NCBI RefSeq assembly: GCF_012641365.1
Contig: NZ_JABAIM010000003.1
Span: 372,001 to 436,000 of the forward strand
Origin: Leeia aquatica
GTDB lineage: Bacteria > Pseudomonadota > Gammaproteobacteria > Burkholderiales > Leeiaceae
DNA length: 64,000 nt
Direction of reading: 5' to 3'
Shown here: positions 57,941 through 61,914 of the stretch, one piece after another
Layout of the letters: each line of letters starts with the position of its first letter
Position numbering within the stretch: the first letter of the stretch is position 1
Made by a program: the position numbers and the translations under genes
The notes under the pieces: generated by a model
The model's input: the letters and a program-made list of their open reading frames with translations, nothing else
Databases searched by the model: none
Told to the model about the DNA's origin: nothing

Positions 57941-59257
57941 TCATGCAGGCCGTGGCCAGCGCAGCTCAACCAGTAACCCGCCTTCGTCGGCCTGCGCCAG
58001 ACGCAATTGCGCACCTTGTTCACGGGCAATCCGCGCCACAATGGCCAGCCCCAGTCCGCTGCCGCCATCGCCGCCGCGCGCCGCATTGCCGCGCTCAAAC
58101 GGCTGTAGTAACCGGGCCCACTCCGCCTCCGGAATACCCTGCCCATGGTCACGTATCTGCAGCCAGACCTGCTGCGCATCCTGCCCGGTTTGTACGATGA
58201 CCGGTGGCGCGCCATAGCGGAAGGCATTGTCCAGCAGATTACCCAGCAGGCGGCTCATCGCCAGCGGCTGCAGTGTCAACCTCGGCAGCGCTTCCACCGC
58301 CAGCTGCAGCTGCAATTGTCCCAAGGGGTATTTGTCCGGCAACGGTCGCAGCAGTTCATGCAGATCGGTCACCTCCGCCCGTTCTTTGGGGCCGCCACCG
58401 ATATAGATCATGAATTGCTGCACGATGCGTTCCATATCCTGCAGGTCGCCCAGCATGCCGTCGCGCAGGCTGTCGTCATGCATCATTTCAACCGCCAGCC
58501 GCATCCGGGTCAGCGGGGTACGCAGGTCATGGCTGATGCCCGCCAGCATCAGCCGTCGGGCATCGTCAGCATCGCGCAGCGAAGTCACCATCTGGTTGAA
58601 CTGATCCGTCAGCAGCCGCAGCTCTTGCGGGCCGCTCGACACCAGCAGCGGCGGTGACTGTCCTTCCGCCAGCAACTTGCTGGCCATCCCCAGTGCGCGC
58701 AGGGGCCGGTTCAAACGCCAGACAAAGAAGGACGCACCCAACATGGCAAACAGGGTAAAGCTGCTGATACCCACCAGCAACGGCCAGCGCCGTTCATTGC
58801 GAATACGCCCAAGCGGGATGGACAACCAGTACGGGCGCTCCAGCACATCGACTTGCAGCCACAAACGCCAGTTGGGCTGGCGCTGGACGCGCACGGCATG
58901 GATAGGAAGCTGGTCCGCTTGCAGCTGCCGCACAATCGCCTGCTCTTGCGCCGGGATATTGTTGTCTGCAGGCGGATCAGCCTCACTCAGTGGATACAGG
59001 TTGGGACCATAAGGCCGGTTGTAGGCACGCAGCCATTGTGCCCGCTGCGCCTCCGGCACGGCCTCCAGCTGCCCCTCCAGTTCGGACAAGGTATCCAGCA
59101 CCTGTTCACTCAGCTGCCCTGCCACCAGATTTTGCCGGTAGTAGCGCAACACGCCCCAGGCAAACCATTGCGACAACAGCAGGGTCACGATGACCACAAC
59201 AGCCAGTCGGCCAAACAGGGTGCGCGGCATCCAGCGCTGCAGGTTCAGGCGTTTCAT
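57941..59257 (-). CDS. envZ: EnvZ-like sensor histidine kinase
   Basis: A 438-residue membrane kinase: TM1 (about 15-35), periplasmic domain (36-158), TM2 (159-181), HAMP, dimerisation domain with H243 (AGISHDLRTPLTRMRLAVEM) and HATPase (LLGNLLDNAFRYG, DHGQGIP, GSGLGLAIV). The phospho-acceptor region and overall plan are those of EnvZ. Its regulator OmpR is encoded 1.2 kb upstream on the same strand; the intervening DNA holds two opposite-strand secreted-protein genes. Its promoter region is shared with the first of these and contains an OmpR-type box, so autoregulation is likely. The signal sensed is unknown. Confidence 0.93.
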   Translation of the reverse strand: MKRLNLQRWMPRTLFGRLAVVVIVTLLLSQWFAWGVLRYYRQNLVAGQLSEQVLDTLSELEGQLEAVPEAQRAQWLRAYNRPYGPNLYPLSEADPPADNNIPAQEQAIVRQLQADQLPIHAVRVQRQPNWRLWLQVDVLERPYWLSIPLGRIRNERRWPLLVGISSFTLFAMLGASFFVWRLNRPLRALGMASKLLAEGQSPPLLVSSGPQELRLLTDQFNQMVTSLRDADDARRLMLAGISHDLRTPLTRMRLAVEMMHDDSLRDGMLGDLQDMERIVQQFMIYIGGGPKERAEVTDLHELLRPLPDKYPLGQLQLQLAVEALPRLTLQPLAMSRLLGNLLDNAFRYGAPPVIVQTGQDAQQVWLQIRDHGQGIPEAEWARLLQPFERGNAARGGDGGSGLGLAIVARIAREQGAQLRLAQADEGGLLVELRWPRPA

Positions 59258-59311
59258 GTCTGCATGATACGACCAAGCCGCCCGCTTTGCCGATCTGCCA
59301 CATGCCGCAGT

Positions 59312-59390
59312 TGTAAATCGCTGTAACGCAGGCCATGTGGCCGCTCACTTTTTTACAGCCCGTACCCGCTCCGACACAACTGGCTTACAC
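59312..59390 (+). promoter_or_regulatory. OmpR-type promoter module, copy 1
   Basis: TGTAAATCGCTGTAAC (59312-59327) is a 10-bp direct repeat, GTAAA-N5-GTAAC. An inverted half-site TTTTTACA ends at 59357 (45 nt from the module start); 15 nt later comes GACACAA (59373-59379), then N5 and TTACAC (59385-59390). TTTACA-N17-CACAAC reads as a sigma-70 -35/-10 pair. Two further copies with the same spacing occur at 59829 and 61273. It lies between envZ and the first small secreted-protein gene. Confidence 0.82.
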
Positions 59391-59455
59391 GCGGACCGCA
59401 GACTGCAGGCCATGGCAAACGCCATATCACCCTTAAGACCACACAGGAGCTACAC

Positions 59456-59818
59456 ATGAAACACATTCTGTTGATGAGTGCCCTCACCCTCTCGCTCACC
59501 TCGCTGCTGGCCCATGCCGAGCGTGAACCCGCACCGCAGGCCGATCACCCCACGTCCATCAATGACCGCCAGCAAGAGCAGCGCGAGCGCATTGAACAGG
59601 GTGTGAAAAGTGGCGAACTGACCTGGCACGAAACCGCCCGCCTGGCCCGTGAGCAGCGGCACATCAAACGGGAAGAGGCCCGCTATCGTGCAGATGGCGA
59701 GTTGACCGCCCGCGAGCGTGCGGATTTGCAGCGCGATCTGAACAAAGCCTCCCGCGATATCCATGGGCAGAAGCATGATGCGCAGGACCGTGATCGCAAC
59801 GGTGGCCGCCGTCGCTGA
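59456..59818 (+). CDS. Small secreted helical protein, paralogue 1
   Basis: A 120-residue protein with a Sec signal peptide (cleavage near AHA-E, residue 22). The mature part is very charged and helical, with two similar units: RIEQGVKSGELTWHETARL and ARYRADGELTARERADLQRDL, each with a G-x-LT-x2-E core. It ends in an Asp/Arg/Asn-rich tail (RDRNGGRRR). Similar periplasmic proteins are common as unnamed genes in Burkholderiales and Neisseriales; the role recalls CpxP/Spy-type LTxxQ proteins but homology is not claimed. AGGAG lies 6 nt before the ATG. It sits behind promoter module 1. Confidence 0.85.
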   Translation: MKHILLMSALTLSLTSLLAHAEREPAPQADHPTSINDRQQEQRERIEQGVKSGELTWHETARLAREQRHIKREEARYRADGELTARERADLQRDLNKASRDIHGQKHDAQDRDRNGGRRR

Positions 59819-59828
59819 GCGGACCATC

Positions 59829-59907
59829 TGTAAATACCTGTAACCCTGACCCGCCAGCGGTACGCCTTTTTACAAAGCCCACCCTGGCGGACACAAAGTA
59901 CTTACAG
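59829..59907 (+). promoter_or_regulatory. OmpR-type promoter module, copy 2
   Basis: TGTAAATACCTGTAAC (59829-59844); inverted box ending TTTTTACA at 59874 (on the minus strand TGTAAAAAGGCGTACC); 15 nt; GACACAA (59890-59896); N5; TTACAG (59902-59907). Geometry is identical to copy 1. It lies in the 137-bp gap before paralogue 2, so it drives that gene alone. Confidence 0.84.
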
Positions 59908-59955
59908 CGCTGGCGCACACTGATCCCGTATTCACCCGATCCGGAGTTTAAAATC

Positions 59956-60393
59956 ATGAAGACCTCCCTGCTGCTGTTGTCCCTGCTGCTGGCTTTTGGC
60001 GTGGCTCGGGCCGAAGACACCCCGACACAAAATGAGGCGCCAAAGACCCTGGAGCAGCGTGAACAACAATTGCAATCGCAAATTGAGCGCGGCCTGCAAA
60101 ATGGCAACCTGACACAGGCTGAAGCTGATCGGCTGAAAGCCGAGCTGGACCGCATCAAGAAACGGGAAGCCGAGCTGCGGGCTGACGGCACCCTCACCGG
60201 GCAGGAACGTGCCCGGTTGGAGCATCGCCTTAATGAGTTGAAACATGACATTCAGCATGAAAAGCGGGATGCCAAGCGTAGCCAGCACCAAGGTGAGGGC
60301 CAGGAAGGTGAGCATCAGGGCCGCGGTGAGCACAAGGATGGTGAGCACGGTGGCCGGGGCGGGGACAAAGGCGGCAAAGGCAAAGGCGGCTAA
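59956..60393 (+). CDS. Small secreted helical protein, paralogue 2 (Gly/His/Lys-rich tail)
   Basis: A 145-residue protein: signal peptide to about residue 19 (ARA-E), then two G-x-LT-x2-E units as in paralogue 1 (QIERGLQNGNLTQAEADRL; AELRADGTLTGQERARLEHRL). A low-complexity tail (from about 105) of Gly, His, Glu and Lys ends GGKGKGG. The His/Glu-rich tail could bind divalent metals. GGAG is about 9 nt before the ATG. It converges with ompR across a long GC hairpin. Confidence 0.85.
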   Translation: MKTSLLLLSLLLAFGVARAEDTPTQNEAPKTLEQREQQLQSQIERGLQNGNLTQAEADRLKAELDRIKKREAELRADGTLTGQERARLEHRLNELKHDIQHEKRDAKRSQHQGEGQEGEHQGRGEHKDGEHGGRGGDKGGKGKGG

Positions 60394-60404
60394 GCGCAGC
60401 CTTA

Positions 60405-60447
60405 CCCAGCCCCCCCGGCTGTGCACGCAGCCGGGGGGGGGCTGGGG
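60405..60447. terminator. Long GC hairpin between paralogue 2 and ompR
   Basis: Arms CCCAGCCCCCCCGGCTG and CAGCCG-G-run-CTGGG fold around TGCACG, with a two-base bulge because the right arm has nine G against seven C. No T-run follows. It lies between convergent genes and probably ends both transcripts. Confidence 0.65.
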
Positions 60448-60484
60448 CATTCAAGCCCGTCTGTACATCGAAGACCAGCCGCCT

Positions 60485-61216
60485 TCAAGGTGTGGTAGTC
60501 GCACCATCCGGAACAAACACATAGCCGAAGCCCCACACGGTCTGGATAAAGCCCGGCTGCGACGGGTCGGCCTCAATCAGTTTGCGCAGGCGTGAAATCT
60601 GCACATCGACACTGCGATCAAACGCTTCAAATTCCCGGCCACGAGACAGCTCCAGCAAGCGCTCACGCGACAGCGGATGACGCGGATGCATCGCCAGCAC
60701 TTTGAGCAAGCTGAATTCCGCTTGCGACAACGGAATCTCAACGTCATTGCGGAACAACTTGCGTTGCCCTGCATCCAGCCGGTAATCGGCAAAGACATAG
60801 ACCTCTTCCGGATCCAGCGCCGCCGCCAGCGCGGGCACCTCCGCCTGACGCCGCAGTACCGCCTGGATGCGAGCCAGCAATTCCCGCGGATTGAACGGTT
60901 TGGGCAGGTAGTCATCCGCCCCCATCTCCAGTCCGATGATGCGGTCCACGTCGTCACCACGGGCGGTCAACATGATGATGGGCAAATTGTCGTTGCGCGC
61001 ACGAATTTTGCGGCACACCGACAAACCATCTTCACCCGGTAGCATCAAGTCCAGGATCAACAGATGCGGGCGTCGCTGCTGCAGCCGTTTTTCCAGCTGG
61101 CTGGCGTCTGCATAGACGTCAACGTCAAAGCCCTGCTCGGTGAGGTAGCGGGTCAACAGCTCGCGAATGCGGGCATCGTCATCAATCAACAGCAGGCGTC
61201 GGGATGGGCTTGTCAT
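60485..61216 (-). CDS. ompR: OmpR-like response regulator
   Basis: The 243-residue regulator is close to E. coli OmpR along its length: receiver LLLIDDDARIRELLTRYLTEQGF with acceptor Asp in ILDLMLPGEDGLSVC, GADDYLPKPFNPRELLARI, and winged-helix RSVDVQISRLRKLIE and IQTVWGFGYVFVPDG. Its kinase partner is envZ at 57941-59257. In most genomes the two genes overlap; here they are split by two inverted genes. The region upstream, shared with paralogue 3, contains a full box oriented towards ompR, consistent with self-regulation. Confidence 0.96.
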   Translation of the reverse strand: MTSPSRRLLLIDDDARIRELLTRYLTEQGFDVDVYADASQLEKRLQQRRPHLLILDLMLPGEDGLSVCRKIRARNDNLPIIMLTARGDDVDRIIGLEMGADDYLPKPFNPRELLARIQAVLRRQAEVPALAAALDPEEVYVFADYRLDAGQRKLFRNDVEIPLSQAEFSLLKVLAMHPRHPLSRERLLELSRGREFEAFDRSVDVQISRLRKLIEADPSQPGFIQTVWGFGYVFVPDGATTTP

Positions 61217-61272
61217 GCCTTGTACTGTAGGGGAGCCGGCTGCGTTCTGCCAAGCCCCTGTTGCACCCCAAG

Positions 61273-61351
61273 CGTAAAAAGCCTGTGGTAAACAGCGGTC
61301 AGGTTACAGCTTTTTACACGGTTCCCACAGCGCGACACAATGCAGATACAC
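61273..61351. promoter_or_regulatory. OmpR-type promoter module, copy 3
   Basis: A GTAAA half-site at 61274-61278 stands exactly where copies 1 and 2 have theirs. The inverted box is complete here: GTTACAGCTTTTTACA (61303-61318; TGTAAAAAGCTGTAAC on the minus strand). Then 15 nt, GACACAA (61334-61340), N5 and ATACAC (61346-61351). CACAAT with TTTACA at 17 bp is the best -10/-35 pair of the three copies. It serves paralogue 3 and may also control ompR. Confidence 0.82.
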
Positions 61352-61404
61352 TCCTGCATCATACTGCCTTCATCCCGTTTTCCGCCTTGCACCCGAGTCT
61401 GACC

Positions 61405-61914
61405 ATGCGCGCCCGCCCCTTGCTTGCCATGCTGCTGTTGCTTGCCTCTTTTGGCAGCACGGCGCATGCAGAAACGCCGGATCAGGGCAGCAATCTGCCG
61501 CCCAAACTGGCTGAGCGCTGGCAATTGCGTGAGAAGCGCCTGCAGCAAGCGCTGGAAAATGGCGACATCACCCCGGAGGCCGCCGCGCGGCTACGGGAAC
61601 GCTGGGCACGGCAGGCGGCCACCATTGAAAAGACGCGGGGTCAGCTTCTGGACGGCAAACCGTCGGGGAGCAAACCCGGCAAGCCCCAGCCAGAGAGCCT
61701 GCAGCCGCAACCGGAAACCCCGGTGCTGGATAATCTGCCAGCCCGTAAAGCCCTGCGCGAAGCCCGCAAAGCGAAGGAAGCACAAAAGACAGAAGCGGAT
61801 GCAGAAGGACAACGAGGCCGCGAGGGCGGTGGCCAGCGTGGGCGCAATGGTGGGGGTTCCGACCGCGGGGGTCGTGATGGTGGAGGGCACGGCGGCGGCA
61901 AAGGCAAAGGCTGA
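61405..61914 (+). CDS. Small secreted helical protein, paralogue 3 (Gly-rich tail)
   Basis: From the ATG before RARPLLAML the protein has 169 residues: signal peptide to about 23 (AHA-E), one G-x-IT-x2-E unit (RLQQALENGDITPEAAARL), a Pro/Lys/Ser linker in place of the second unit, a charged helix (ARKALREARKAKEAQ) and a Gly/Arg/Asp-rich tail ending GGGKGKG. The tail end matches that of paralogue 2. The frame is open for 48 more codons upstream, through promoter module 3, and this extension is rejected. The ribosome site is weak. Confidence 0.8.
   Translation: MRARPLLAMLLLLASFGSTAHAETPDQGSNLPPKLAERWQLREKRLQQALENGDITPEAAARLRERWARQAATIEKTRGQLLDGKPSGSKPGKPQPESLQPQPETPVLDNLPARKALREARKAKEAQKTEADAEGQRGREGGGQRGRNGGGSDRGGRDGGGHGGGKGKG

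Follow-up and report, generated by a model that had tools for sequence, protein, structure and literature searches.

The ompR/envZ locus and its promoter modules

The window, our name for the whole 64,000-nucleotide (nt) stretch of Leeia aquatica DNA analysed here (contig NZ_JABAIM010000003.1, positions 372,001 to 436,000 of the forward strand), contains genes for the response regulator OmpR and an EnvZ-like sensor kinase, together with three genes for small secreted proteins that we call sp1, sp2 and sp3, each preceded by one copy of a 79-nt promoter module (Table 1). EnvZ/OmpR is a textbook two-component system that has been studied mostly in enteric bacteria through porin genes. The regulator passes the NCBIfam OmpR equivalog cut-off, and its DNA-binding domain aligns to that of E. 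coli OmpR (1odd; residues 6-110 of the 114 queried, expectation value (E) 4.7e-39); the kinase falls under the EnvZ equivalog cut-off of 415 bits, the next family, CpxA, scoring 122.8. An earlier sequence-only reading of this stretch had placed both system genes between the module copies; this holds for ompR, which lies between copies 2 and 3, and not for envZ, which lies to the left of copy 1.

Table 1. Positions of genes, predicted boxes and predicted promoter elements in the window
Feature	Position	Strand	Remarks
envZ-like sensor kinase gene	57941..59257	-	NCBIfam EnvZ 283.5 bits, best family
Predicted envZ -10 (TATCAT)	59264..59269	-	42 nt from copy 1 box U; paired by generic scan with TCGGCA 59293-59288
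Copy 1 box U	59312..59327	-	TGTAAATCGCTGTAAC; minus strand GTTACAGCGATTTACA
Copy 1 box D	59342..59357	+	ends TTTTTACA; first half degenerate
Copy 1 box P	59373..59389	+	GACACAA-N5-TTACA
Copy 1 predicted -10	59399..59404	+	CAGACT
sp1	59456..59818	+	small secreted helical protein, 120 amino acids
Copy 2 box U	59829..59844	-	TGTAAATACCTGTAAC
Copy 2 box D	59859..59874	+	
Copy 2 box P	59890..59906	+	
Copy 2 predicted -10	59916..59921	+	CACACT
sp2	59956..60393	+	paralogue of sp1, 145 amino acids, Gly/His/Lys-rich tail
C/G-run hairpin	60405..60446	.	between convergent sp2 and ompR; possible two-way terminator, by eye
ompR	60485..61216	-	NCBIfam OmpR equivalog 360.3 bits, cut-off 331
Predicted ompR -10 (TACAGT)	61224..61229	-	43 nt from copy 3 box U; paired by generic scan with TTGGCA 61253-61248
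Copy 3 box U	61273..61288	-	degenerate, CGTAAAAAGCCTGTGG
Copy 3 box D	61303..61318	+	complete, GTTACAGCTTTTTACA
Copy 3 box P	61334..61350	+	GACACAA-N5-ATACA
Copy 3 predicted -10	61360..61365	+	CATACT
sp3	61405..61914	+	third paralogue, 169 amino acids, Gly-rich KGKG tail; start codon chosen by eye

The modules start at 59312, 59829 and 61273, all on the + strand, and a letter-by-letter check found every element of the geometry that the sequence-only reading had described. In all three copies GTAAA lies one base inside the module start, TTTTTACA ends 45 nt past that start, and the next 15 nt are followed by GACACAA, 5 nt and (T/A)TACA(C/G); a single expression with all of these distances has exactly three matches in the window, all on the + strand. 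Among the copies 28 of the 79 columns are invariant. Outside the elements that were fixed in the earlier reading, identity is 47% between copies 1 and 2, 20% between copies 1 and 3, and 29% between copies 2 and 3, so its remark that the flanks are unrelated holds for copy 3 and is slightly overstated for copies 1 and 2.

Each module can be read as three OmpR-type tandem boxes about 31 base pairs (bp) apart, an inverted box U followed by boxes D and P. On the minus strand box U reads GTTACA-N4-TTTACA and resembles box D; box P (GACACAA-N5-TTACA) is the third OmpR-type box, which we also take to be similar to the PhoB pho box. Nine bases past the last TTACA or ATACA lies a predicted -10 hexamer that was overlooked in the sequence-only reading. 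Published OmpR sites are 20 bp long and consist of two 10-bp sub-elements (PMC3050692); their core is GXXAC, to which another AC is added (PMC7867234), and an example is TTTACATTTTGTAACACATA (PMC7867234, PMC3050692). The boxes that follow this rule, the additional AC lying about one turn from GXXAC, are box U of copies 1 and 2, box D of copies 2 and 3, and box P of all three copies (there at 11 bp).

Occurrence of the module in the genome and across the order

GTAAA-N5-GTAAC occurs at four sites in the whole genome (3,556,396 bases), three of them in the modules, while a backwards control pattern has three sites. When as many as two mismatches are allowed, the extended pattern TTTACA-N18-ACA-N7-TACA-N10-A-N3-T finds four places, namely the three modules, which match it exactly, and a further one with a single mismatch; its reversed control finds none. 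A genome scan with a position matrix had been suggested in the sequence-only reading, and models built without the three modules recover these alone. Thus R1, a sequence-only model made from 28 modules of other genomes (including the two congeners of the window's genome and excluding the rows of family f4), returns only the three modules genome-wide at E<=5, with E 9.2e-6 for copy 2, 0.0011 for copy 1 and 0.0026 for copy 3 (150 of 179 first-look candidates scored). Likewise, in a matrix of 26 modules from other families (window's genus and f4 rows excluded) the modules are the top three window positions with scores of 35.5, 30.0 and 19.9, the next best being -3.4. The fourth GTAAA-N5-GTAAC site (G000:C5:100194-100208; L004:1501-1515) lies about 80 bp upstream of an ATP-binding cassette (ABC) ATPase gene that presumably resembles mlaF; it is without the rest of the module and was unmatched in the R1 genome search.

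Beyond this genome, we searched 300 genomes of the order, 108 of which have ompR at E<=1e-90, and took from each of the latter one upstream region of up to 400 bases. TGTAA...TTACA spanning 46 nt was found in 19 of these 108 regions and a TTACA-TTACA offset of 32 in 30, compared with a mean of 0.02 and a maximum of 1 for each spacing in 200 shuffles; one or the other is present in 46 regions, from 14 of 28 families. The full exact pattern has 23 matches in 21 of the 300 genomes (reversed pattern, 2), and for 17 of the 23 an OmpR match lies within the same 3-kilobase (kb) locus; one match (L081) was not resolved in this check and is read as L259 among the R1 sites. Among 369 genomes of the class the full pattern is found in the window's own genome only, with 0 of the 365 same-class genomes outside the order matching (reversed pattern, 2). 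R1 at E<=0.02 matches 63 of the 300 order genomes, training genomes included. From the protein side, 18 of the best 80 sp1 relatives have a divergent adjacent ompR, 13 of them with the offset-32 pair; five of the other 62 carry that pair, one of these (L188) with ompR 1.1 kb away. This predicted promoter design recurs in many families of the order, mostly before small secreted proteins of uncharacterised function. The sequence-only reading had named absence of the module before the orthologous small genes of relatives as the finding that would count against it, and the module is present in both congeners and in other families. What it had called a small local regulon is thus an instance of a widespread design, of which only the threefold copying and the split between ompR and envZ are local.

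That split is unusual among the loci examined. In the window's genome ompR and envZ are not adjacent and hence do not form the contiguous pair of an EnvZ/OmpR operon, whereas envZ follows ompR within 0.4 kb in 19 of 20 ompR loci from other genomes, both congeners and a second ompR of genome G111 included; the remaining locus shows no EnvZ match and stands on a contig that stops 0.4 kb beyond ompR. In both available congeners ompR and envZ are contiguous, and a single module separates ompR from a divergently transcribed sp gene (in G002 its box P has ATA in one half and was therefore missed by the exact pattern). The split and the triple set therefore look specific to the window's lineage among the loci examined. 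The gene order is mgtE-envZ-[sp1-sp2]-ompR-sp3-glnA in the window and mgtE-envZ-ompR-sp1-sp3-glnA in G001, which suggests a tandem duplication followed by loss of one ompR copy: from an ancestral form with one module between divergent ompR-envZ and an sp gene, the block ompR-module-sp was probably duplicated in tandem and one ompR lost, which would have left ompR and envZ apart and the sp genes at three. A terminator scan found none in this region, including at the C/G-run hairpin between sp2 and ompR.

It is most improbable that the three modules simply arose by recent copying of a single promoter and owe their likeness to descent and not to selection. The genes that they precede are indeed paralogous, but the fixed elements are identical while the remainder is only 20-47% alike, sp2 and sp3 are only 41% and 29% identical to sp1, and the same boxes recur with the same spacings in other families. 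Both the identity pattern and the recurrence of the spacings in 46 of the 108 ompR upstream regions contradict duplication without selection and bear out the earlier description of the module as a selected structure.

The architecture was refined with an alignment of 33 modules, consisting of 30 rows picked only by TTACA-N27-TTACA plus the three window modules. The -10 hexamer had been noticed by eye in nine sequences beforehand and was not used in picking the rows; nine bases past the proximal TTACA this hexamer has A at its second and T at its sixth position in 33 of 33 modules. The consensus also has G(T/A)AACA 10 bp before the distal TTACA and GAAACA 11 bp before the proximal TTTACA. The alignment thus indicates three boxes that start at offsets 0, 30 and 61, each about three helical turns from the next, and a -10 after the last of them. 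It also makes it very unlikely that these are ordinary sigma-70 promoters whose -35 is TTTACA and whose -10, at a distance of 17 nt, is CACAA(N), with repeats that are polymerase elements. TTTACA-N17-CACAA(N) does fit all three window copies, TTTACA-17-CACAAT of copy 3 is the third hit of a generic sigma-70 scan, and the corresponding hexamer is roughly AACA-N-T in the 33 modules (A2 in 31, T6 in 19). However, copy 3 alone passes the scan, and the hexamer 24 nt further on is better conserved, with A2 and T6 in every module, so that TTTACA/CACAA(N) was rejected as the -35/-10 pair. Moreover, box P is absent in 7 of 8 f21 genomes, which have instead a TATGCT-like hexamer 30-31 nt after TTTACA, about 10 bp nearer box D (by eye).

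The candidate regulator and its predicted action

In the relatives box U faces ompR. A U-D pair at 45 or 46 nt is present in 27 genomes, the window copies not being counted among them, and in 24 of these a reverse -10 (AnnnTA) lies 29-32 or 40-43 nt beyond U, as against a mean of 1.2 and a maximum of 5 in 500 shuffles, with the distance ranges set after seeing the data. In the window box U points at envZ in copy 1 and at ompR in copy 3, and at these distances lie predicted -10 elements for both genes (Table 1) whose promoters the generic sigma-70 scan lists independently; copy 2 has a perfect box U, no reverse -10 at that distance and no gene on that side. The probable feedback on both system genes that the sequence-only reading proposed has in this way gained geometric support. 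Both predicted -10 elements lie close to their genes. The predicted ompR -10 (window 61216-61229) is 5-8 nt before the start codon in 28 of 56 genomes (shuffled mean 2.9, maximum 8), 52 of the 108 genomes having been dropped because no in-frame ATG lies near the match start, and the window's envZ -10 is 6 nt before the envZ ATG; such nearness suggests that the ompR and envZ messages may be leaderless.

We consider it likely that an OmpR-family regulator, most probably OmpR itself, activates the module promoters and the genes of its own system. Each module would be a response-regulator-dependent promoter region in which OmpR, or a closely related regulator of its family, binds the three tandem-repeat boxes. 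Boxes D and P, in promoter orientation upstream of a sigma-70-type -10, would activate the downstream sp gene, and since P takes the place expected of a -35, sp transcription should need an activator. Box U, inverted and facing a system gene (ompR in the relatives and in copy 3, envZ in copy 1), would probably give positive autoregulation. It may also aid cooperative binding at D and P or help the sp promoter, because U is perfect even in copy 2, where there is no gene on that side. That OmpR instead represses the sp genes, with P overlapping the -35 region and occluding polymerase, seems quite unlikely to us: P does span about -38 to -22 relative to the predicted start, but the 33 modules share no TTGACA-like hexamer at the distance where one would be expected, and this absence suits activator-dependent promoters.

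The modules that stand elsewhere bear on which regulator binds. Outside the 108 aligned ompR upstream regions we examined 23 R1 sites: at 8 the locus contains no regulator match, at 7 the neighbouring regulator is 49-53% identical to the window OmpR, at 5 it is 58-61% identical, and 3 have partial or weak matches. R1-type modules precede an sp1-family gene (L246) and LTXXQ genes (L275, L281, L284 and L290) with no regulator match within about 1.5 kb, which indicates linkage to the target and not to the locus. Ten downstream proteins, chosen by us from the 23 loci, were compared with Pfam: eight match LTXXQ above cut-off (in four of these Metal_resist outscores LTXXQ), one is an EF-hand protein and one an OmpA-like barrel. 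At four f14 loci (L276, L279, L283 and L287) a module of the same type adjoins a second regulator about 50% identical to OmpR, and the genes behind encode EF-hand proteins, recognised by Pfam at L276 and by eye at L279 and L287, or a different secreted protein.

The box type is thus not exclusive to OmpR, since similar modules adjoin these more distant regulators, and GTAAA-N5-GTAA is also the CpxR box. The modules might be bound mainly by another OmpR-family regulator (CpxR-, RstA- or BaeR-like), their nearness to ompR being coincidental; besides the second regulators, the presence of modules before LTXXQ genes would fit, as cpxP and spy are Cpx targets in enterics (PMC6737893). We regard this as unlikely, given that the geometry lies directly upstream of ompR in 46 of the 108 genomes, that the only three sites of the window's genome flank ompR and envZ, and that box U faces one or the other of these genes.

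Several points weigh against binding and activation by OmpR and have to be set beside this. One half is degenerate in box D of copy 1 and in box U of copy 3, and the period of box P is 11 bp, not 10 bp. Neither diagnostic spacing is found in 62 of the 108 ompR upstream regions, and in two f4 genomes (G098 and G137) the offset-32 pair stands before a gene that does not encode a secreted protein and that looks, we assume, like tsaB. The generic sigma-70 scan lists none of the -10 hexamers proposed for the sp genes, and the post hoc choice of distance ranges tempers the count of reverse -10 elements. The regulators next to the modules at L276, L279, L283, L285, L286, L287 and L288 are only 49-53% identical to the window OmpR. 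Finally, a study of Acidovorax citrulli reports gel shifts in which the ompR promoter was not bound by OmpR, though expression was OmpR-dependent (PMC12170943). On balance the comparison among genomes largely supports the interpretation offered in the sequence-only reading, and we infer OmpR, or a regulator close to it, as the binder.

The sp proteins and comparison with known systems

All three sp proteins have signal-peptide-like starts (by eye). The sp1-sp2 and sp1-sp3 matches have E 4e-16 and E 0.013, and a comparison of the sp1 and sp3 family profiles joins them at 97.3% (E 1.7e-11), in agreement with the earlier proposal of one system with three paralogous outputs. None of the three has a Pfam or NCBIfam match above any cut-off, a search of related loci with sp1 alone found no relative, and a search of the PDB sequences with the sp profile gave no match. 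The structure model of sp1 is a confident three-helix bundle over residues 35-114 (helices 35-52, 57-80 and 85-114), with a predicted local distance difference test score (pLDDT) of 93-96 across residues 41-110. It has no Foldseek match at E<=0.001, and its best VIA matches are designed three-helix bundles (Z 10.6-11.1). The sp outputs form one uncharacterised helical protein family. A Gly-rich tail ending GKGKG is common to sp2 and sp3 (60295-60390 and 61800-61911), sp1 being without it, and could possibly bind anions or metal. A motif like LTPEERRxLRxDxxxAxRxIY (by eye), resembling the C-terminal half of sp1, occurs in many divergent small secreted proteins encoded upstream of ompR (families f6, f8, f10, f11, f31 and f46) that are otherwise different.

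CpxP and Spy are both LTXXQ proteins. Membership of the sp proteins in that family was considered and rejected: Pfam gives no LTXXQ match at E<=1 for sp1, sp2 or sp3, and profiles A2 and A4 compared with the LTXXQ set give 1.2% each. The sp3 relative L012 has an LTXXQ score of 24.0 vs 24.3. CpxP and Spy are absent among the fold matches listed for the sp1 model, an absence that excludes nothing. The window's genome has one LTXXQ gene above cut-off (G000:C2:297185-297481, L291), at which the R1 genome search found no module site.

The operator design described here is defined by sequence, is found in many families of one order, and links OmpR/EnvZ to small secreted proteins; the module can serve directly to predict OmpR-type targets in a large group of bacteria, and the promoter predictions specify single bases and hence are testable. 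The sp proteins are also a concrete candidate for a periplasmic partner of EnvZ. By analogy with CpxP we tentatively raise the possibility, doubtful as it may be, that EnvZ/OmpR is in effect a three-component system across much of the order. A conserved bidirectional OmpR operator would couple ompR (or envZ) to a divergently oriented gene whose product, a secreted helical protein, would sense the state of the envelope and tune EnvZ as CpxP does CpxA; this slot would be filled by unrelated proteins (sp family, LTXXQ/DUF3106, EF-hand) according to lineage, and would have been expanded to three here.

Our literature search, whose coverage is without most subscription journals, found no report of this module or of the sp proteins; one paper (PMC5192318) concerns a different regulator. 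As far as this search shows, the promoter type and the OmpR logic are of a known kind; what is new is how the boxes are spaced, that they would be used in both directions, that the design is repeatedly coupled to secreted proteins without a name, and that the set here is both triple and split.

The closest known arrangement is that of cpxP and cpxRA in Enterobacteria and Vibrio, where a gene for a small secreted protein likewise points away from the genes of a regulator and its kinase, regulator-type boxes occupy the space between, and CpxP inhibits CpxA (PMC6737893, PMC4985592). The same promoter type as ours, moreover, precedes LTXXQ genes in other genomes of the order. Unlike that system, the regulator here is OmpR by family model, sp1, sp2 and sp3 do not belong to the LTXXQ family and their profiles do not match it, and there are three outputs and a split system. 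The ompF and ompC promoters are similar in having three regulator boxes upstream of a weak promoter, with GXXAC/TTTAC half-sites of about 10-bp period (PMC3050692, PMC7867234). There, however, the sites are tandem 20-bp units, which we read as having one orientation, whereas here the boxes recur every 31 bp, with the farthest inverted and the nearest of 11-bp period, and the targets are small helical secreted proteins and not porins. Finally, ompR is preceded by OmpR-type boxes in Yersinia pestis and Salmonella as well, where they are read as self-stimulation (PMC3050692), and the autoregulation predicted here is alike in this respect; it differs in that a single intergenic element would act in both directions and that envZ has a predicted promoter of its own.

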